A stretch of 64,000 nucleotides of DNA. It comes from Ilumatobacter fluminis (GTDB lineage Bacteria > Actinomycetota > Acidimicrobiia > Acidimicrobiales > Ilumatobacteraceae). The position numbers and the translations under genes are program-made. Below are positions 7,871-54,283 of this stretch, piece by piece. The stretch lies in NCBI RefSeq assembly GCF_004364865.1, contig NZ_SOAU01000001.1, forward strand, positions 1,364,001 through 1,428,000. The letters run 5' to 3'. The notes beneath the pieces are model-generated. The model saw only the letters and a program-made list of their open reading frames with translations. It was not told where the DNA came from and ran no database searches. How positions within the stretch are numbered: the stretch's first letter is position 1; each line of letters begins with the position of its first letter.

Positions 7871-8647
7871 ATGATCCGATTCGACAAGGCGAGCGTCACC
7901 TACAAGGGTGGCGTCAGCGCCATGAAAGACCTCGACCTCGAGATCGGTGACGGCGAGTTCGTCGTCATCGTCGGGTTGTCCGGCGCCGGCAAGTCGACGC
8001 TGATCCGTGCGATCAACGGTCTCGTGCCGCTCACGAGTGGCGGGCTGAACGTCAACGGTCACGACGTCCCGAACCTCAGCGCGAAGGAGCGACGCGAGCT
8101 GCGTTCCGAGGTCGGGATGATCTTCCAGGGCTTCAACCTCGTCGACCGCACGAGCGTGCTCAACAATGTGCTGATGGGACGCCTCCACCAGGTGCCGCTG
8201 TGGCGGACCCTGATCGGCAAGTACCCCGAGAAGGACATCCAGATCGCCGCCAAGGCACTGAACCGGGTCGAGATCCTCGACCGTGCGTACGTTCGTGCCA
8301 CCAACCTGTCGGGTGGCCAGCGCCAGCGCGTGGGCATCGCTCGTGCGCTCGCCCAAGAACCCAAGATCGTCCTGGCCGACGAGCCGGTCGCCTCGCTCGA
8401 CCCGCCGACGAGCCACGTCGTGATGAAGTACCTCCAGCAGATCAGCCGCGACCTCGGCATCACGACCATCGTCAACCTGCACTTCCTCGATCTCGCCACG
8501 GCGTACGCCGACCGCATCATCGGCCTCCGCAACGGCGAACTCGTCTTCGACGGCCCGGGCTCCGAGGCCGACGAGCAGACGTTCCGCGACATCTACGGCC
8601 GCAGCCTCACCGCCGACGACACCATGGCGAAGCAGGCCGCCCTGTGA
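7871..8647 (+). CDS. phnC: Phosphonate-type ABC transporter ATP-binding protein
   Basis: A 258-aa ATPase. Walker A GLSGAGKST (about 36-44), Q-loop FQGFNL, signature LSGGQRQRVGIARAL (about 145-159), Walker B IVLADEP and the switch His in NLHFLD. Length and order match PhnC. It powers import by the two following permeases. The stop codon overlaps the next start by 4 bp (GTGA). Confidence 0.92.
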   Translation: MIRFDKASVTYKGGVSAMKDLDLEIGDGEFVVIVGLSGAGKSTLIRAINGLVPLTSGGLNVNGHDVPNLSAKERRELRSEVGMIFQGFNLVDRTSVLNNVLMGRLHQVPLWRTLIGKYPEKDIQIAAKALNRVEILDRAYVRATNLSGGQRQRVGIARALAQEPKIVLADEPVASLDPPTSHVVMKYLQQISRDLGITTIVNLHFLDLATAYADRIIGLRNGELVFDGPGSEADEQTFRDIYGRSLTADDTMAKQAAL

Positions 8648-9441
8648 GCGAGTCGCCACTTCGGCTCCCGCCGAAACCCAAACCGTCCCCGTGGGCCGTC
8701 GGCTTGTCGATCGGCATGGTCGTGTTCACGGTCGTGTGCGCCCGCACCGTCGGGTTCTCGTTCTCCGGTCTCATCGAGGACTTCGGCCGGAACAACCCGG
8801 TCGCCAAGGGCCTGCTCGAGATCTCCTGGGGTGAGATGTTCTCCGAACGCTCCCGCAAGGCGTTCCTCGAGACCCTCCAGATGGCGGTGCTCGGCACGAC
8901 GGCGGGTGCCATCGTGTCGCTGCCCATCGCACTCTGGTCGACCGAGGTCGGCAACCCGTACCTCATCCCACGGGTCCTGCTGCGCTCGTTCAACAACGTG
9001 GTGCGAGCCATTCCCGACCTGCTGTGGGCCGGCCTGTTCGTGCTCGGCGTCGGCATCGGCGCGCTGCCGGGCCTGCTCGCCCTGTTCTTCTTTTCGATGG
9101 CCGTGATCGTCAAGCTCACCGCCGACACCCTCGACGGCATCGACATGGGCCCGATCGAGGCGGCCAAGGCGTCGGGTGCCTCGCACACCCAGATGCTGCG
9201 CACCGCTGTCGTGCCGCAGATCCTCCCGGCGTACAGCTCGTACGTGCTGTACGACTTCGAGCTCAACCTTCGTGCGTCCGCCGTGCTCGGTCTCGTCGGT
9301 GCCGGTGGCATCGGTCAGCGACTCGACTTCTTCCGCAACCGTGGCGACTGGGGCAAGCTCTGGGGCCTCGTGCTGATGTTCTTCCTGGTGGTGGTCGTCG
9401 TCGAATGGCTGTCGGTCCGGATCCGGAGGCGGCTGGTATGA
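8644..9441 (+). CDS. phnE: Phosphonate-type ABC transporter permease, first copy
   Basis: A 265-aa permease with about six membrane segments. The EAA loop that docks on the ATPase is EAAKASGASHTQMLRTAVVPQ-like (residues about 170-190), followed by the PhnE-type VGAGGIGQRLD. GTG 8644 overlaps the phnC stop codon by 4 bp. It probably forms a heterodimer with the second permease. Confidence 0.88.
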   Translation: MSESPLRLPPKPKPSPWAVGLSIGMVVFTVVCARTVGFSFSGLIEDFGRNNPVAKGLLEISWGEMFSERSRKAFLETLQMAVLGTTAGAIVSLPIALWSTEVGNPYLIPRVLLRSFNNVVRAIPDLLWAGLFVLGVGIGALPGLLALFFFSMAVIVKLTADTLDGIDMGPIEAAKASGASHTQMLRTAVVPQILPAYSSYVLYDFELNLRASAVLGLVGAGGIGQRLDFFRNRGDWGKLWGLVLMFFLVVVVVEWLSVRIRRRLV

Positions 9442-10301
9442 GCTCGATGAGCGCTTCGCCGCCGGTCGAGCTGCCCTCCAAGCCGCGCGACACGTTCAAG
9501 ATCGTCGTCAGCACGATCTTCGTCGTCCTGTTCGGCTGGTCGGCGATCTCGGTCGACATCAAGTGGTCGCGTCTGCTCGAAGCCCCGGCCGACATGTATC
9601 GCCTGTTCAAGGCGATGTACTCCGACATCCCGTGGGACGAGCTCAGTCGTCTGATCGGCCTGATGTGGGACTCGATCGCGATGGCGTGGGTCGGCACGTT
9701 GATCGCTGCCGTGTTCGCGATCCCGCTGTCGTTCCTCGCTGCCGAGAACCTCGTCGGTCGGCCCGTCGCCTGGGTGACCCGCCAGGTGTTCAACGTGCTG
9801 CGCGCCGTGCCGGAAGTCATCCTCGCACTGCTGTTCGTGCCGATGTTCGGCCTGTCGCCGATGGCGGGTGTGCTCGCGATCGGCGTCGGTTCGATCGGTT
9901 CGCTCGGCAAGCTCTTCTACGAGATCATCGAGAACATCGAGCGTGGCCCGATCGAGGCGACCGACGCCGTCGGCGCCAGCCGTCTGCAGCGTCTCCGGTG
10001 GGGTGTCGTGCCCCAGGTGGCGCCCGAACTGACCTCGTTCCTGCTGTACCGCTTCGAGATCAACATCCGTGCGTCGTCGGTGCTCGGCGTCGTCGGCGCC
10101 GGCGGCATCGGCGGCGTGCTGGCCGACACCGTGCGGTTCAAGGAGTACGGCGTGGCCGGGCTGGCCTTGATCGTCGTCATCGTCGGCACGATCATCGTCG
10201 ACACCATCTCGGGTGCGATCCGGCGCCGCATCGTCGCCGGCCGCACGATCGACATCGGCGAGGCGCAGAAGTACGCCGTCGACACCGGCGGGCTGTCGTG
10301 A
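9438..10301 (+). CDS. phnE: Phosphonate-type ABC transporter permease, second copy
   Basis: A 287-aa permease paralogous to the preceding one. The N-terminal cytoplasmic tail is longer; the EAA loop contains EATDAVGASRLQRLRWGVVPQ-like sequence and is followed by VVGAGGIGGVL. ATG 9438 overlaps the preceding stop codon (ATGA), and its own stop codon overlaps the following HAD gene (GTGA), so all four genes from phnC are translationally coupled. Confidence 0.88.
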   Translation: MSSMSASPPVELPSKPRDTFKIVVSTIFVVLFGWSAISVDIKWSRLLEAPADMYRLFKAMYSDIPWDELSRLIGLMWDSIAMAWVGTLIAAVFAIPLSFLAAENLVGRPVAWVTRQVFNVLRAVPEVILALLFVPMFGLSPMAGVLAIGVGSIGSLGKLFYEIIENIERGPIEATDAVGASRLQRLRWGVVPQVAPELTSFLLYRFEINIRASSVLGVVGAGGIGGVLADTVRFKEYGVAGLALIVVIVGTIIVDTISGAIRRRIVAGRTIDIGEAQKYAVDTGGLS

Positions 10302-10951: not shown

Positions 10952-10960
10952 GCGGCAGCG

Positions 10961-11812
10961 CTATCGGTTCTGGGCGTGCTGGAAGCCGAAGCGGCCCTTG
11001 ATGCAGAGGTTGCCGTGGGTGATGGGGGAGTCGGGCGGTGAGGTGACCTTGACGATCGTGTCGTCCTGGACGTGCAGCTCGAGATTGCAGCCGACACCGC
11101 AGAACGCACAGATCGTCTCGGTGACGGTCTGATCGTCCTCGCTCCAGGTGCCGGCCGCGCGCATGTCGAACTCGGTCGAGAACATCAGGGCACCGGTCGG
11201 GCAGACCTGGATGCAGTTGCCGCAGTAGACGCACGCCGAGTCGGGGAGCGAGACGTCGTTCTCGGTCGAGATGTGGCTGGCGAAGCCGCGCCCGGCGACG
11301 TCGATCACGAAGCTGTGCTGCCACTGGTCGCCGCAGGCGTCGACGCACTGGTAGCAGAGGATGCACTTCGAGTAGTCGCGCACGTACAGGTCGTTGTCGA
11401 CCTTGACCGGTTGGGCGACGGTGGCAGCGTCGTCGCCGTACCTGGTCGGGTCGGCACCGTATTCGGCGTTCCATTCGTCGACGCCGTCGGTCAGCGACAG
11501 GTCGACCGACGAACCGAGGAACTCGAGCACCATCTTGCGCGAGTGGTCGACTCGTTCGGAGCGGGTGCGCACGACCATGTCGGGCTCGACCGGCCGGGAG
11601 CACGACGGCACGAGCGTACGTGATCCCTCGACCTCGACCATGCACACGCGACACGCGTTCTTCGGGGTGATGGTCTCGCCGTAGCAGAGCGTCGGGATGT
11701 CGCTCTCGTCACGGCCGCCTGCGGCCTGCAAGATCGTCGTGCCCGCCGGCACGGTGACGGCCCGGCCGTCGATCGTCAGCGTCACCGGAGTCGCGTCGGG
11801 GGTTGCCGTCAT
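10961..11812 (-). CDS. Formate dehydrogenase Fe-S subunit (N-terminal third of FdhA as a separate protein)
   Basis: A 283-aa protein. Domains in order: a plant-type [2Fe-2S] domain (CYGETITPKNACRVC and C in VPSCS, about residues 43-75), a His/Cys cluster region, a two-cluster ferredoxin domain (CILCYQCVDAC and CVYCGNCIQVCP), and the start of a molybdopterin-enzyme [4Fe-4S] domain (CAFCGVGC ... CIKGRFG). It stops right after that domain, where full-length FdsA/FdhA chains continue into the catalytic body. The body is encoded upstream (13544-15493). ATG 11812 overlaps the preceding stop codon by 4 bp. It would carry electrons from the molybdenum/tungsten site to the NAD module. Confidence 0.85.
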   Translation of the reverse strand: MTATPDATPVTLTIDGRAVTVPAGTTILQAAGGRDESDIPTLCYGETITPKNACRVCMVEVEGSRTLVPSCSRPVEPDMVVRTRSERVDHSRKMVLEFLGSSVDLSLTDGVDEWNAEYGADPTRYGDDAATVAQPVKVDNDLYVRDYSKCILCYQCVDACGDQWQHSFVIDVAGRGFASHISTENDVSLPDSACVYCGNCIQVCPTGALMFSTEFDMRAAGTWSEDDQTVTETICAFCGVGCNLELHVQDDTIVKVTSPPDSPITHGNLCIKGRFGFQHAQNR

Positions 11813-13533
11813 CGCAGCGCTCCCAGCCGGACGACGGCCGATTCGATCGCGTTGTAGGCGGTTTGGCCGAGGCCACAGATGCTGGCGTCTCGCATTGCCA
11901 CACCGATCTCGTGGAGCAGCTCTCGATCGAGCTCGCGATCGCCGCCGGCAAGGATCCGTTCGATGGCTTCCTCCTGTCGGACCGTGCCCACGCGGCACGG
12001 CACGCACTGACCGCACGACTCGTCCCGGAAGAACGCGGCGATGCGGCGGACGAGGTCGTCGATGTCGGCGTGCTGGTCGATCACCATCACGACACCGGAT
12101 CCGAGCGAGAGCCCGGCCGCGCGCACGTCGTCGGGCGAGAGCACCAGATCGAGATCGTCGGGGCCGACGAAGTTGCCTGCGGCGCCGCCGAGCAGCACGG
12201 CTCGAACCTCGGATCCCTCGCGCATCCCACCTGCGAGTTCGATCAGCTCGGCGAGGGTCTCGCCGTACGGGACCTCGTACACACCGGGCCGCTGCACGGC
12301 GCCCGACAGGCAGAACAGGCGGTGCTCGGTGGCGTGGCCGTCGAGCAGCACGTAGGGGATGTTCATGAGCGTCTCGACATTGTTCACGACGGTCGGCTTG
12401 CCGAACAGACCGACCTGGAACGGGAACGGCGGCTTGTTGCGCGGCTCACCGCGGTACCCCTCGATCGAGTTGAAGATCGCCGTCTCCTCGCCGCAGATGT
12501 AGGCGCCGGCGCCACGGACCAGGGTGAGATCGAACCCGGTATCGCCGCCGATCAGGCCACGCTCCCGACAGGCGTCGAGTGCGGCTTCGAGTGTGAGACG
12601 GGCCCTCGGGTACTCGCCGCGGATGTAGATGTAGCCGTGGTCGCAACCGGTGGCGTAGGCCGCGATGCACAGCGACTCGATCAGGGTGAACGGGTCGTTC
12701 TCGATCAGTGTCCGATCTTTGAAGGTGCCCGGCTCCGACTCGTCGGCGTTGCACACCAGGTAGTGCGGCGCCGCCTCCTGGGTGCGGACCGCTTCCCACT
12801 TGCGAGCCGTCGGGAACCCGGCACCGCCGCGGCCGACCAGCTCCGACTCGGCAACGGCGGCGATCACACCCTCGGGCCCGAGTCCTCGGGCGAGGCGGAG
12901 CGCCTCGAAACCACGATCGTCGAGGAACGCATCGAGATCGAGTGGATCGATCCGTCCGACGCGGTGCAGCAGCACGAGGTCGTCGCCGCCTGCCTGCGGT
13001 ACGGCGGCGGCGGGGTGCGCCTCCGGGCCCGGGAAGGCGCCGTCGGCGAGCCGCTGCACGTCGACCGGGGTGACGTAACCCGCGACAGCCTGTCGGAGCG
13101 GCGAACCGGCTTCGATCACGAACGCGCTGGGGGCGCGCTCGCACATGCCGAGACACGGCGATGCGTGCACGCCGTCGGGCAGGTCGTCGTCGGTGAGTCC
13201 GCCCGCCGAACGACAGGCCAGGTCGACACAGGCGTGCACCTGGTGTTTCGGCCGCTCGGCCGGCGAGAACAGCGAGTAGAACGTCGCGACGCCGTACACC
13301 TCGGCGGGCCCGAGATCGAGCCGCTCGGCGATGTGGTCGATCGCTTCCTGGCTCAACCAGCCGACACGATCGTTGACGGCGTGGAGGGTCGGCAGCAGCA
13401 GGTGCCGCTTCGACCGGAGCGCGTGTCCACCGACGGCGTCGTGCTCCCCGCGATCGACCGCCGGTCCGAGGACCGACTCGATCGCGAGCTGCTCCTCGAG
13501 GGTCGGCGGTATCCCGCGGGTCGTGACGTCCAT
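11809..13533 (-). CDS. NAD-linked formate dehydrogenase diaphorase subunit, NuoE-NuoF fusion
   Basis: A 574-aa fusion. The N-terminal thioredoxin-like [2Fe-2S] NuoE domain has Cys pairs in CVDLAC and CLGMC (about residues 102-130). The C-terminal NuoF domain has the NADH/FMN segments GRGGAGFPT and GAGAYICGEET, an SLBB-like part and the [4Fe-4S] motif SCGQCVPCR. It passes electrons from the Fe-S subunit to NAD+ as in FdsB/HoxF-type enzymes. It starts 11 nt after the fdhA stop codon and overlaps the following gene by 4 bp, so the three genes form one operon. Confidence 0.9.
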   Translation of the reverse strand: MDVTTRGIPPTLEEQLAIESVLGPAVDRGEHDAVGGHALRSKRHLLLPTLHAVNDRVGWLSQEAIDHIAERLDLGPAEVYGVATFYSLFSPAERPKHQVHACVDLACRSAGGLTDDDLPDGVHASPCLGMCERAPSAFVIEAGSPLRQAVAGYVTPVDVQRLADGAFPGPEAHPAAAVPQAGGDDLVLLHRVGRIDPLDLDAFLDDRGFEALRLARGLGPEGVIAAVAESELVGRGGAGFPTARKWEAVRTQEAAPHYLVCNADESEPGTFKDRTLIENDPFTLIESLCIAAYATGCDHGYIYIRGEYPRARLTLEAALDACRERGLIGGDTGFDLTLVRGAGAYICGEETAIFNSIEGYRGEPRNKPPFPFQVGLFGKPTVVNNVETLMNIPYVLLDGHATEHRLFCLSGAVQRPGVYEVPYGETLAELIELAGGMREGSEVRAVLLGGAAGNFVGPDDLDLVLSPDDVRAAGLSLGSGVVMVIDQHADIDDLVRRIAAFFRDESCGQCVPCRVGTVRQEEAIERILAGGDRELDRELLHEIGVAMRDASICGLGQTAYNAIESAVVRLGALR

Positions 13534-13543
13534 CCGTCGATTC

Positions 13544-15493
13544 CTACTCGCCCGCCACCGGTGACGTCACATCGACCCGGTCGATACGCACCGCCGCGGC
13601 CTTGAACTCGGCGGTGCCGGCCTTCGGATCGGTGGCGTCGATGGTCAACTGGTTGACGTCGACCTCGTCGGGGAAGTGGAACGTCATGAAGACGAGCCCG
13701 GCACGAAGGTTCGCGTCGATTCGGGCGGGCGCGTCGACCGAGCCCCGGCGAGACGTGACGCGCACGACCTCACCGTCGGCGATGCCGAGCCGCTCGGCGT
13801 CGGCGGGGGACACGTCGATGGTCTCGCCGAGCCGGTTGGGACTGCGGTAGCCGCCCGACTGCACGCCCGTGTTGTACGAGTCGAGGCGTCGTCCGGTGGT
13901 GAGCCGCAGCGGGTACTCGTCGTCGAGCGCCTCGACCGGCGGATCGTGCTCGACCACGCTGAACGGCGCCGGACGCCCGCGCTCGGCGGGGTCGTCGGCC
14001 CACAGTCGGCCGTGGAGGAACGGCGGTTCGAGCGTGTCGTCGGTGTAGCACGGCCACTGGATACCGCCGAGCGCCTCGAGTCGGCCCCACGACATGCCGG
14101 CGTGCATCGGCGACAGTCGGCGGAGCTCGTCCCAGATCTGTTCGTGGTCGTCGTACTGCCAGTCGTGCCCGAGTCGGCGGGCGAGCTCGACGAGGATGTC
14201 GATGTCGTCGCGTGCCTCGCCGGGCGGTGAGATCGCCTTGCGCACGCGCTGGACCCGCCGTTCCGAGTTCGTGACCGTGCCGTCCGACTCGCACCACGAG
14301 GCCGAACCGGGGAGCACGACGTCGGCGAGCTCGGCCGTCTTGGTGAGGTAGATGTCGAGCACCACCAGGTGGTCTCGGCTCGACAACAGCTCGATCGCCT
14401 TGCTGACGTCGGCCTCGGATTGTGCGGGGTTCTCGCCGATCACGAACAACGAACGCAGCTCGTCGCGTTCCATCGCCTCGAACATCTCGGTCAGGTGCAA
14501 CCCGTCGTGCGGCGGGACGCTCACGCCCCATGCCGCGTCGAACTTCGCGCGTGCAGCGTCGTCGGTGACGTCCTGGAACCCGGGCAGCTTGTTCGGCAGC
14601 GCGCCCATGTCGCCGCCGCCCTGGACGTTGTTCTGGCCGCGCAGCGGAGTGAGGCCTGCGCCGTAGCGACCGACCTGTCCGGTGAGCAGCGCCAGGTTGC
14701 ACAACGCCAGCACGTTGTCGACCCCGTTGTGGTGCTCGGTGATGCCGAGCGTCCAGCACAGCTGCGCCGCCTCGGCGGTCGCGTAGGCGTGAGCCAGCTC
14801 GCGAATCGCGTCGGCCGGGACCCCGGTGACCGCCTCGCCGCGTTCGAGCGTCCACGGCTCGACCGACGCCGCGTACTCGTCGAACCCGCTCGTCGCCCGT
14901 TCGATGAACTCGGTGTGGGCGAGTCCGGCGTGGATGATCTCGTGTGCGACCGTGTGGGCGAGCGCGATGTCGGTGCCCACGTGCAGCCCCAGCCACCGAT
15001 CGGCGAACTGTGCGGTCTCACTGCGGCGCGGGTCGACCGAGTAGAGCTTCGCCCCGCGCTCGATCGCCGTGAGGACGTGGTGGAAGAAGATCGGGTGCGC
15101 GTTGCGCGCGTTCGATCCCCACATGACGATCAGGTCGGCGTCTTCTGCCTCCTGGTACGACGACGTGCCGCCGCCTGCTCCGAACACAGTGGCCAGACCG
15201 ACCACGGAAGGAGCGTGTCAAGTGCGGTTACACGAGTCGATGTTGTTCGTGTCGAGCGCCGTGCGGGCGAGCTTCTGGGCGACGAAGTTCATCTCGTTGG
15301 TCGACTTGGAGCACGAGAACATGCCGATCGCCTCGCCGCCGTGCTCGTCGAGCGTCCGTCGGAACCCGTCGGCGGCGCGGTCGAGCGCCTCGTCCCACGT
15401 GGCCGGCCGCAGCACGCCGGCGTCGCGGACGAGCGGCGTCGTCAACCGGGTCTGGGGACGGAATCGATGGGGGCGATGCGGGTGGCGTGCCAT
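13544..15493 (-). CDS. fdhA: Formate dehydrogenase catalytic subunit, predicted selenoprotein (TGA at 15220-15218)
   Basis: Read through one TGA, this is 649 residues. The frame is continuous: 91 codons end NNIDSCNRT, then TGA, then HAPSVVGLATVFG and about 550 more codons. SCNRT-U-HAPS is the place where formate dehydrogenases carry Sec or Cys ligating Mo/W, so residue 92 is predicted selenocysteine. A SECIS-like hairpin follows at once. The chain then shows MopB features (MWGSNARNAHPIFFHH, SVDPRRSETAQFAD, the LTTGRRLDSYNT cofactor region). It lacks the N-terminal [4Fe-4S] domain, which is supplied by the gene at 10961. Start ATG 15493 has TACAGT (15506-15501) 7 nt upstream. First gene of the fdh operon, divergent from fhs (113-nt gap). 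Confidence 0.88.
15177..15220 (-). promoter_or_regulatory. Sec codon with SECIS-like hairpin
   Basis: On the minus strand, TGA (15220-15218) is followed after 12 nt by the stem GTGGTC/GGCCAC (15205-15200 and 15194-15189) closing the 5-nt loop GGTCT. An outer stem GCTCC/GGAGC (15214-15210, 15181-15177) encloses it. The GGUCU loop and its distance from the UGA match what is known of bacterial SECIS elements such as E. coli fdhF, whose loop contains AGGUCU. Confidence 0.75.
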
Positions 15494-15606: not shown

Positions 15607-17304
15607 ATGACGCTGCCGCCCGATCTCGACATCGCCCGGTCCGTGACGCCGAAGCCGGTGCGCGACATCGCCGCCGGCATGGGCCTCGACGCCGACCTGT
15701 TGCGCCCGTACGGCGACGACGTCGCCAAGATCGATCTGGCGGCGATCGATCGGTTGGCCGACCGCCCGAAGGCGAAGTACGTCGTCGTCACGGCGATCAC
15801 GCCCACACCGTTGGGCGAAGGCAAGACGACCACGGCGGTCGGTCTCGGTCAGGCGATGGCGCACATCGGGAAGCAGGCGACCCTGTCGCTCCGCCAGCCC
15901 TCGATGGGGCCGACGTTCGGGATCAAGGGTGGCGCAGCGGGCGGCGGGTACAGCCAGGTGATCCCGATGGAGCTCCTCAACCTCCACCTCACCGGTGACT
16001 TCCACGCAGTCACGGCTGCGCACAACCTGCTCGCCGCCATGGTCGACAACCATCTGCACCACGGCAACGAACTCGATCTCGCGATCGACGACATCACGTG
16101 GCGACGCGTGCTCGATGTGAACGACCGTGCTCTGCGCAACATCGTGGTCGGACTCGGCGGCAAGATCGACGGCGTGCCGCGCCAGACCGGCTTCGACATC
16201 ACCGCCGCGTCCGAGGTGATGGCGCTGCTGGCACTGACCACCTCCGCCGCCGACCTGCGAGAGCGACTCGGTCGGATCGTCGTCGGCTATACCCGGTCGG
16301 GTGAGCCGGTCACGGCCGACCAGTTGCAGGCAGCGGGTTCGATGGCGGTCATCTTGCGCGACGCCCTGTCACCGAACCTCCTTCAGACGCTCGAGCACAC
16401 GCCCGTGATCGTGCACACCGGCCCGTTCGGCAACATCGCCACCGGCAACTCGTCGGTGATCGGCGACCTGATCGGCATCCGCACCGGCGAGTACCTGATC
16501 ACCGAGGCCGGCTTCGGCGCCGACATGGGTGCCGAACGCTTCTTCAACATCAAGTGCCGCACCTCCGGTCTGGTGCCCGATGCCGCCGTCGTGGTCGCCA
16601 CCATCCGCGCCCTCAAGGCGCACTCCGGCAACTACCGCATCGTCGCCGGGAAGCCGCTCCCGGACGATCTGTTCGCCGAACGTCCCGACGACGTCGAGGC
16701 GGGGGCAGCGAACCTGCGCAAGCAGATCGAGAACGTGCAGGCGCACGGCATCACGCCCGTCGTGGCGATCAACGCCTTCCCGACCGATCATCCCTCCGAG
16801 CACGAAGTCGTCCGCCGGATCGCCGAATCGATGGGCGTTCGCGCCGAGGTGTGCACCAACGTCGTCGACGGTGGCGCCGGTGCCAAGGCCCTGGCAGGAG
16901 CGGTCGTCGAGGCGTGCGACGAGCCGAGCGAGTTCCGCTTCCTGTACGACACCGCCGACTCCCTGAAGACCAAGATCGAAAAGGTCGCCACCCGCATCTA
17001 CGGCGCAGAACGGGTCGAGTACACCGGTCCGGCGAGTCGTCAGATCGCCTCCTACGAGGCGAACGGCTTCGGTGATCTGCCGGTGTGCATCGCCAAGACC
17101 CACCTGTCGATCTCGGGCGACCCGTCACTCAAGGGGGCGCCCACCGGCCACACCTTGCAGGTACGCGAGGTGCGGGCGTCCGTCGGCGCCGGTTTCGTGT
17201 ACCCGATCTGCGGCACCATGAGTACGATGCCGGGCCTCTCGAAGCAGCCGGCCGCCACCCGGATCGGCTTCGACGACGACGGCCGGATCGTCGGCCTCTC
17301 CTGA
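15607..17304 (+). CDS. fhs: Formate-tetrahydrofolate ligase
   Basis: A 565-aa enzyme making 10-formyl-THF from formate, THF and ATP. P-loop TPTPLGEGKTTT (about 65-76), the RQPSMGPTFGIKGGAAGGGY-type substrate segment (about 96-115) and EAGFGADMGAE are all present, and length is normal for Fhs. A GGAGGGA ribosome binding site precedes ATG 15607 by 6 nt. It lies head-to-head with the formate dehydrogenase operon and is followed by folD, placing formate at the centre of this block. Confidence 0.95.
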   Translation: MTLPPDLDIARSVTPKPVRDIAAGMGLDADLLRPYGDDVAKIDLAAIDRLADRPKAKYVVVTAITPTPLGEGKTTTAVGLGQAMAHIGKQATLSLRQPSMGPTFGIKGGAAGGGYSQVIPMELLNLHLTGDFHAVTAAHNLLAAMVDNHLHHGNELDLAIDDITWRRVLDVNDRALRNIVVGLGGKIDGVPRQTGFDITAASEVMALLALTTSAADLRERLGRIVVGYTRSGEPVTADQLQAAGSMAVILRDALSPNLLQTLEHTPVIVHTGPFGNIATGNSSVIGDLIGIRTGEYLITEAGFGADMGAERFFNIKCRTSGLVPDAAVVVATIRALKAHSGNYRIVAGKPLPDDLFAERPDDVEAGAANLRKQIENVQAHGITPVVAINAFPTDHPSEHEVVRRIAESMGVRAEVCTNVVDGGAGAKALAGAVVEACDEPSEFRFLYDTADSLKTKIEKVATRIYGAERVEYTGPASRQIASYEANGFGDLPVCIAKTHLSISGDPSLKGAPTGHTLQVREVRASVGAGFVYPICGTMSTMPGLSKQPAATRIGFDDDGRIVGLS

Positions 17305-17330: not shown

Positions 17331-18221
17331 GTGACCGACAGCTTCGAACGTACGGCCGGTGGGGCGATCCTGCTCGACGGCAACCGGCTCCGCGACGAGA
17401 TCGTCGCCCAGATCCGCGACGACCTGGAGGGCCTCGGAAGCCCGAACGTGTGCCTTGCCACGGTCCTCGTCGGCGGCGACAAGCCGAGCCGTATCTATGT
17501 GCGGATGAAGCAGCGCAAGGCCGAAGAGGCCGGCATGCGCTCGCGCCACGTCGAGATCCCCGAGACGGCATCCCAGGCCGACGTCGAAGCGGCGGTGCAG
17601 GAGCTCGTCGACGACCCCGACGTCCACGGCATCCTGGTGCAGCTCCCGCTCCCGGACGGCTTCGACCCCGAACCGGTGTTGGCACTGATCCCGCCGGAGA
17701 AGGACGTCGACGGTCTCACCGAGCGGTCGATGGGCCGCCTCATCCGTGGCCTGCCCGGTCACGTGCCGTGCACGCCGCTCGGGGTGATGCGGCTGATGGA
17801 GCGCTACGGCGTCGAGACGGCCGGCAAGCGTGCCGTGGTGGTCGGCCGGTCGACCCTCGTCGGGTTGCCGCAGCTGCTGCTGCTCGGGCGCAAGGGCGTC
17901 GACGCCACCGTCACCCTGGCGCACTCCCGCACGCCCGACATGATCGAGGTGTGCCGCGAGGCCGACATCCTCGTCGCGGCGGCGGGTCAGGCCCGCATGA
18001 TCACCGCCGACCACGTCAAGCCCGGCGCGGCCGTGCTCGACGTCGGCGTCTCGCGCAGCGAAGCCGGCATCGTCGGCGATGTCGACTTCGACGCCGTCCA
18101 AGCCGTCGCCGGAGCGATCACCCCGATGCCCGGCGGTACCGGCCCGATGACCATCGGCTGCCTGCTCGAGAACACCGTCGCCGCCGCCCGCATGCTCGGC
18201 GCCATCCCTGCCTCCGCCTAG
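17331..18221 (+). CDS. folD: Methylene-THF dehydrogenase/cyclohydrolase
   Basis: A bifunctional enzyme interconverting 5,10-methylene-THF, methenyl-THF and 10-formyl-THF; 296 aa, usual length. Seen: YVRMKQRKAEEAG with the catalytic Lys (about 58-70), VQLPLPDGFD, the PCTPLGVM segment, VVVGRSTLVGLP for NADP binding and PMPGGTGPMT. GTG 17331 is chosen over the longer open frame because TAGGTT (17318-17323) ends 7 nt upstream and the family N-terminus fits. It is 26 nt after fhs; the gap may hold its own leaderless promoter. A perfect inverted repeat begins 3 nt after the stop codon. Confidence 0.95.
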   Translation: MTDSFERTAGGAILLDGNRLRDEIVAQIRDDLEGLGSPNVCLATVLVGGDKPSRIYVRMKQRKAEEAGMRSRHVEIPETASQADVEAAVQELVDDPDVHGILVQLPLPDGFDPEPVLALIPPEKDVDGLTERSMGRLIRGLPGHVPCTPLGVMRLMERYGVETAGKRAVVVGRSTLVGLPQLLLLGRKGVDATVTLAHSRTPDMIEVCREADILVAAAGQARMITADHVKPGAAVLDVGVSRSEAGIVGDVDFDAVQAVAGAITPMPGGTGPMTIGCLLENTVAAARMLGAIPASA

Positions 18222-54210: not shown

Positions 54211-54283
54211 GGGGCTATAGCTCAGTTGGCAGAGCGCCTCCATGGCATGGAGGAGGTCAAGGGTTCAATTCCCTTTAGCTCCA
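54211..54283 (+). tRNA. tRNA-Ala (GGC)
   Basis: A 73-nt cloverleaf. The acceptor stem GGGGCTA/TAGCTCC contains the G3-U70 pair that marks tRNA-Ala; D-arm, anticodon stem CCTCC/GGAGG with loop ATGGCAT giving anticodon GGC, and T-arm GGGTTCAATTCCC are all present. The 3' CCA is not encoded. Confidence 0.96.

Follow-up and report, generated by a model that had tools for sequence, protein, structure and literature searches.

A predicted selenocysteine codon in the split alpha subunit of a formate dehydrogenase from Ilumatobacter fluminis

Does the in-frame TGA of a formate dehydrogenase gene in Ilumatobacter fluminis end translation, or does it encode selenocysteine (Sec)? The question arises in the window, by which we mean the whole 64,000-nt stretch of DNA that was analysed (contig NZ_SOAU01000001.1, positions 1,364,001 to 1,428,000). 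Its minus strand carries fdhA (13544–15493), a frame of 649 residues that ends in TAG and has a TGA (15218–15220) as its sole internal stop; this TGA stands at residue 92 and is the final codon of the open frame 15493–15218. An earlier note on this DNA had described two in-phase minus-strand frames split only by that TGA and had placed it within SCNRT-x-HAPS. Both descriptions are accurate, the surroundings reading DSCNRT-U-HAPSVVG. Judged from sequence, UGA at residue 92 is very probably read as Sec to make a formate-oxidising enzyme, and the TGA appears to be a case of recoding, not of decay.

The frame encodes the molybdopterin-binding catalytic half of a formate dehydrogenase; Pfam domains Molybdopterin and Molydop_binding are present and the N-terminal Fe4S4 domain is absent from the frame. 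The motifs U92-H93 and R285-G-Q agree with the motif CH / RGQ-or-H, which passages of PMC8808070 assign to formate dehydrogenases. Among solved formate dehydrogenases, residue 92 aligns with Cys in 7qv7_S and 7bkb_D and, in 9t1s_L, with an X that we take as Sec. Against TIGR01591 (formate dehydrogenase alpha, an NCBIfam equivalog) FdhA scores 659.3 bits over profile positions 51–672, below the curated cut-off of 666.25 because the first part of the profile is matched by the product of another gene, fdhC: profile positions 1–55 match window positions 10952–11116, at the end of fdhC. The earlier call of a formate dehydrogenase catalytic gene stands as to the molybdopterin domains, but the frame supplies just the molybdopterin part of an alpha subunit that is split, its Fe4S4 part being encoded separately.

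The separate half is fdhC (10961–11812, minus strand, 283 aa), which corresponds to the N-terminal half of a formate dehydrogenase alpha subunit and has 2Fe-2S, 4Fe-4S and Molybdop_Fe4S4 domains. Between the two halves lies fdhB (11809–13533, minus strand), a 574-aa fused NuoE-like and NuoF-like NADH/FMN subunit with Nuo51 FMN-binding, SLBB, NADH_4Fe-4S and NuoE-like domains; its stop is TGA, and the fdhC start overlaps its end as ATGA. In an alignment with 9wxb_B, a solved formate dehydrogenase alpha chain of 957 residues, FdhC 6–283 falls on 21–306 and FdhA 15–637 on 307–931. Together FdhC and FdhA correspond to a single alpha chain that has been divided, the break at 306/307 leaving no gap.

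Relatives were collected in a contig scan with six peptide patterns, none of which spans the TGA. The scan gave 532 stretches encoding an FdhA relative, and the best 80 of the 532 together with the window make the set of 81 sequences used below; the closest named relative among these 80 is from an Ilumatobacter sp. MAG (94% identical). Codon 92 is TGA in 46 of the 81 sequences and TGC or TGT in the remaining 35, a pattern that bears out the proposal of a metal-ligand position held by Sec or Cys. The 45 TGA relatives among the best 80 extend down to ∼69% identity, and at least 549 further codons are open in 44 of them. The exception, L059, is cut short by a second stop that follows a frameshift near the gene end, either a draft-assembly fault or decay.

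It is extremely improbable that the TGA is a real stop, which would make fdhA a decaying pseudogene or a pair of genes for separate proteins. A true stop would have to be shared by those 45 relatives, with long open frames behind it in 44, and to coincide with Cys in the other 35 of the best 80. Genes of this family do use TGA as a normal stop, as the end of fdhB in the window illustrates: the first stop after codon 92 is TGA in each of the 35 Cys genes of the 81-sequence set and in 18 of its 46 TGA-bearing genes (one via the L059 frameshift), the others having TAG (18) or TAA (10). This difference in stop codons may reflect lineage and base composition only. The part of the gene before the TGA gives dN/dS values of 0.115–0.343 in 8 of 10 relatives, 0.496 in L034 and 0.653 in L028; the comparison was ungapped throughout, and L028 has some residues fewer in this part. 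A complete hairpin accompanying only the TGA forms and a full Sec machinery in the genome, both described below, likewise argue against a real stop.

In a survey of 121 genomes of the window's family (its own included), the matches with an identity of 59% or higher number 45, and 41 of these have exactly one internal TGA. The other four are two fragments starting past the codon, one copy with two TGAs, and one with three TGAs and a TAA. Twelve loci fetched from this survey (one being the window's own) have TGA at codon 92 and all six pairs of the hairpin without exception, as do the stretches from genomes G160 and G062. The survey and the best-80 set are not independent since some genomes probably occur in both. 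The earlier note had named ordinary stops at other positions in relatives as a mark of decay. What is found is TGA or Cys at the exact codon, and the extra stops, a point in favour of a real stop, occur only in two copies among the 45 survey matches, both from draft genomes. The copy with three TGAs and a TAA (L122, genome G160) has motif, TGA and hairpin intact and a garbled stretch mid-gene, which could be an assembly fault or recent decay.

A SECIS-like hairpin of six pairs (15189–15205, minus strand) begins 12 bases 3′ of the TGA and consists of GTGGTC (15205–15200), the loop GGTCT (15199–15195) and GGCCAC (15194–15189), so that the downstream hairpin with a GGUCU loop in the earlier note is indeed there. 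All six pairs and the loop are kept in 46 of 46 TGA forms (window plus best 80 of 532). Among the 35 Cys forms of the same best 80, none has six full pairs and one has GGTCT; a hairpin complete in 46/46 TGA forms versus 0/35 Cys forms goes beyond what chance would give. At the third position of the loop Gly codon, a synonymous site, every one of the 46 TGA forms has T, while the Cys forms of the set have G (23), C (9), A (2) or T (1).

One stem pair is swapped among the 46 TGA forms (G-C in 41, C-G in 5), with both partners at third codon positions and the changes synonymous. This compensatory swap, the only alteration of a pair on both sides, is seen in 5 of the 38 distinct rows. A covariation test on these 38 distinct 45-base rows (TGA forms of the 81-sequence set, 500 shuffles) found 228 of 228 cells paired and a covariation score that no shuffle reached. 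The count of pairs changed on both sides (one) was no higher than in the shuffles, being equalled in 273 of 500, and with the partners slid by 3 columns 76.3% of cells were still paired. The folding energy of the putative SECIS is average (−11.4 kcal/mol, z 0.11, with 101 of 200 shuffles folding at least as well) and was rejected as evidence for the hairpin.

In the Rfam scan no family reaches its gathering score at the hairpin, and within the window only a tRNA at 54211–54283 does. The bulged U of the E. coli-type SECIS is absent, as the six pairs are contiguous in all 46 TGA forms of the window and best 80; the bulge-free hairpin may function like the E. coli type while being variant in form. 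When the genome was searched with a model derived from the hairpin (E-value up to 10), six matches were obtained, with a TGA only at the window's own (73.1 bits). The other five (at most 27 bits) lack a TGA both where the model puts it and immediately upstream. The model covers SECIS elements of this type only, and other kinds would escape it.

Sec insertion further calls for its own machinery, and the earlier note had given a lack of selB/selC as grounds for abandoning the proposal. All four sel genes were found in the genome, a single contig of 4,775,416 bases (99.97% complete): selC, a tRNA-Sec of 66.6 bits (cut-off 47) with anticodon TCA; selB (271.9 bits, over its cut-off, with a SelB-wing_3 domain); selA (405.6 bits), which adjoins selB; and selD (324.5 bits), whose motif SCGGCAAK is the Cys form, not the Sec form. 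The genome also has fdhD (158.5 bits); FdhD is a maturation factor of formate dehydrogenases. Two further SelB-profile matches with identical score and profile range (G000:C1:968998-969867 and 1002216-1003085; L010, L011) are perhaps duplicate EF-Tu genes.

The same genes bear on a selenium-free account, in which a near-cognate or altered tRNA reads the UGA as Cys or Trp. Cys at this position in 35 of the best 80 relatives would suit such a reading. It is very unlikely nonetheless: tRNA-Sec, SelA, SelB and SelD are all encoded, readthrough as Cys or Trp needs no hairpin and yet the hairpin is kept in all 46 TGA forms, and fdhB terminates at an ordinary TGA. Co-occurrence of tRNA-Sec with the TGA forms was also considered as support for Sec and rejected as not discriminating. 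For 50 of the best 80 loci, under stricter filters, tRNA-Sec was found in 17 of 23 genomes with a TGA locus versus 16 of 27 with a Cys locus; the six TGA-form genomes with no tRNA-Sec match are MAGs of 1.0–3.5 Mb.

If codon 92 is read as Sec, what would the enzyme do? We hold with high confidence, on the strength of gene content and homology, that fdhA-fdhB-fdhC (15493–10961, minus strand) encodes a cytoplasmic NAD+-linked Mo or W formate dehydrogenase whose catalytic chain has Sec92 inserted via SelB and the hairpin. That it is a selenoprotein with a role other than NAD-linked formate oxidation, such as a CO2 reductase or an enzyme with another electron acceptor, is improbable. Among solved structures FdhA is matched best by the FdhF chain (7qv7_S) of a hydrogen-dependent CO2 reductase, and FdhB by a subunit (9bov_B) that bears the name NADH dehydrogenase (quinone); both would fit another role. 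However, the scan of neighbouring frames (part of the window's frames) showed no hydrogenase domain, FdhB has the Nuo51, SLBB, NADH_4Fe-4S and NuoE-like domains listed above, and the authors of PMC7176365 term the counterpart in Actinomycetospora chiangmaiensis NAD+-dependent.

A TIGR01591 search of the genome gave 13 matches, with an internal TGA only in the window's; a short match at the fdhC end shows one TAG, which by its place is fdhC's own stop, and the other 11 show none. The next best match, at 4159813, was considered as a backup formate dehydrogenase and rejected: its site reads RFCMVSA, with no His after Cys, and it is presumably an assimilatory nitrate reductase.

Divergent from fdhA, and not part of the enzyme, is fhs (15607–17304, plus strand) for formate–tetrahydrofolate ligase. 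Beside it lies folD (17331–18221, plus strand; GTG start at 17331 inferred) for methylene-tetrahydrofolate dehydrogenase/cyclohydrolase, with Pfam domains THF_DHG_CYH and THF_DHG_CYH_C. Among the 45 TGA loci of the best 80, fhs is divergent upstream in 28, upstream on the same strand in 5 and not seen in 12, some flanks being too short; none of the 35 Cys loci showed it, though again some flanks are too short to tell. Past the end of the fdh genes, on the opposite strand (7871–10301, plus), are an ABC transporter ATPase and then two frames that by eye resemble phosphonate-type permeases.

The proposed route can be put together as follows. SelA and SelD would make the Sec-tRNA(Sec) used by SelB, which would bind the hairpin 12 bases past the UGA, so that Sec is inserted and termination avoided. 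By analogy with homologues, Sec92 would ligate the metal beside His93 and Arg285. FdhC and FdhA would assemble to stand in for one FdsA-type alpha chain, and electrons would pass, as the domains suggest, through FdhC's Fe-S clusters and on to FdhB, at its FMN/NAD site. FdhABC would thus convert formate to CO2 and NADH, with NAD+ as the likely acceptor, while the divergent fhs-folD pair would route formate into the folate pool, making a metabolic fork.

The gene order fdhA-fdhB-fdhC is seen in 70 of the best 80 relatives (37 TGA and 33 Cys forms), and the split is for that reason common to Sec and Cys forms. In the remaining 10 loci the contig ends <300 bases from the fdhB match (six) or shows no fdhB, with 36–1130 bases left (four). 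The gap between fdhA and fdhB exceeds 1000 bases in 12 of the 42 TGA loci of this set with an fdhB match: L036 (8930–10873), L035, L037, L038, L039, L042, L043, L046, L047, L050, L056 and L094, the last counted only because its match starts at fdhB residue 170. In L036 two opposite-strand frames lie between the genes, and one resembles by eye a zinc-type alcohol dehydrogenase.

In a quick tree of 80 of the 81 sequences (L059 omitted) the distribution of Sec and Cys needs two changes; with these two changes and a midpoint root, gain and loss look alike. Several FdhA genes from MAGs whose records bear the names Acidobacteria, Bifidobacterium breve or Ferrithrix (L034, L046, L047, L049, L039, L043 and L081) sit among Acidimicrobiia-like rows of the tree, and misnamed MAGs are a likelier account of these than transfer.

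The mechanism of recoding is itself textbook, and we regard the result as solid, if rather unexceptional. It restores the full length of a gene which standard reading would shorten, and the 41 single-TGA matches (at least 59% identity, 121 genomes, own included) suggest that formate oxidation by Sec enzymes is widespread in the family to which the window belongs. Nature supplies matched Sec and Cys forms, of which just the former have the full hairpin, and these would suit experiments on what an enzyme gains from Sec. More tentatively, and with the odds against it, the lineage might have a distinct class of NAD-linked Sec formate dehydrogenase: an FdsA-type alpha chain would be divided at the junction of the Fe4S4 and molybdopterin domains and encoded with the parts in reversed order, and all of the sel machinery here, working on a bulge-free SECIS, might be kept for one gene. 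Under such a reading the split would make the Sec-bearing half a separate product, and its making could therefore be gated by selenium.

The literature searched (titles, abstract beginnings and passages, with subscription journals mostly outside its scope) held no description of a bulge-free hairpin of this kind, nor, in the same scope and in passages of PMC13332983, PMC6288185 and PMC8808070, of a split alpha chain. Ilumatobacter with selenocysteine and Ilumatobacter with formate dehydrogenase gave nothing on topic, PMC5579227 and PMC8526967 respectively being by title on other subjects. Acidimicrobiia with both terms gave no match, again with subscription journals mostly outside the search. 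The reversed-order split alpha chain and the bulge-free hairpin may be worth a specialist note.

How, then, does the enzyme compare with known systems? In the FdsABG type (6tg9/6tga and 9wxb, which we take to be NAD-dependent formate dehydrogenases of this type) ferredoxin-like, Fe4S4 and molybdopterin domains are together in one alpha chain; here that single chain is not found, its domains being divided between FdhC (21–306 of 9wxb_B) and FdhA (307–931), in two genes of reversed order. The NuoF-like FMN/NADH subunit and the NuoE-like domain of that type are present in FdhB, and its beta subunit is NuoF-like, as is FdhB. The NuoE-like part is separate there and fused to NuoF here, and the metal site has Cys there and a predicted Sec here. 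FDH1 of the Methylorubrum extorquens type (presumably 7vw6 and 7e5z, with tungsten) has a beta subunit that is a NuoE/NuoF fusion, of 572 aa versus 574 in FdhB, and is not known to carry Sec; its alpha chain matches FdhC at 69–339 and FdhA at 372–987 and, unlike here, is unsplit. E. coli FdhF (1aa6/1fdo) has a catalytic domain homologous to FdhA (1aa6_A, E-value 7.8e-134), Sec next to His, and a UGA followed by a GGUCU-loop hairpin; its Fe4S4 domain is in the same chain and its hairpin has a bulged U, whereas here there are six pairs with no bulge.

Sec formate dehydrogenases are already known from related bacteria. According to passages of PMC5029168, no bacterial selenoproteins are more widespread among the sequenced genomes surveyed than the formate dehydrogenase alpha subunit and SelD, and PMC5330540 describes Geodermatophilaceae (Actinobacteria) in whose formate dehydrogenases Sec is even encoded by UAG. 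In A. chiangmaiensis DSM 45062, a member of another Actinomycetota lineage, FDH3 (FdhA3/FdhB3/FdhC3) is described as cytoplasmic and NAD+-dependent and is one of three Sec formate dehydrogenases of the strain (PMC7176365). All three FDH3 subunits were detected there by proteomics, and formate removal was selenite-dependent, which the authors credit to FDH1 and FDH3 jointly. The earlier note had expected automated callers to miss the first 91 codons or to call a pseudogene; FdhA3 is given as the 640-aa database protein WP_084681743.1, so some annotation does recover such a protein in full. The passages of PMC7176365 mention no division of the alpha chain such as is present here. The FDH3 subunits are of 640, 614 and 316 aa versus 649, 574 and 283 aa in I. 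fluminis, and the alpha subunit has Sec, as described there and predicted here; by size and description, as PMC7176365 gives them, FDH3 is the same kind of enzyme.
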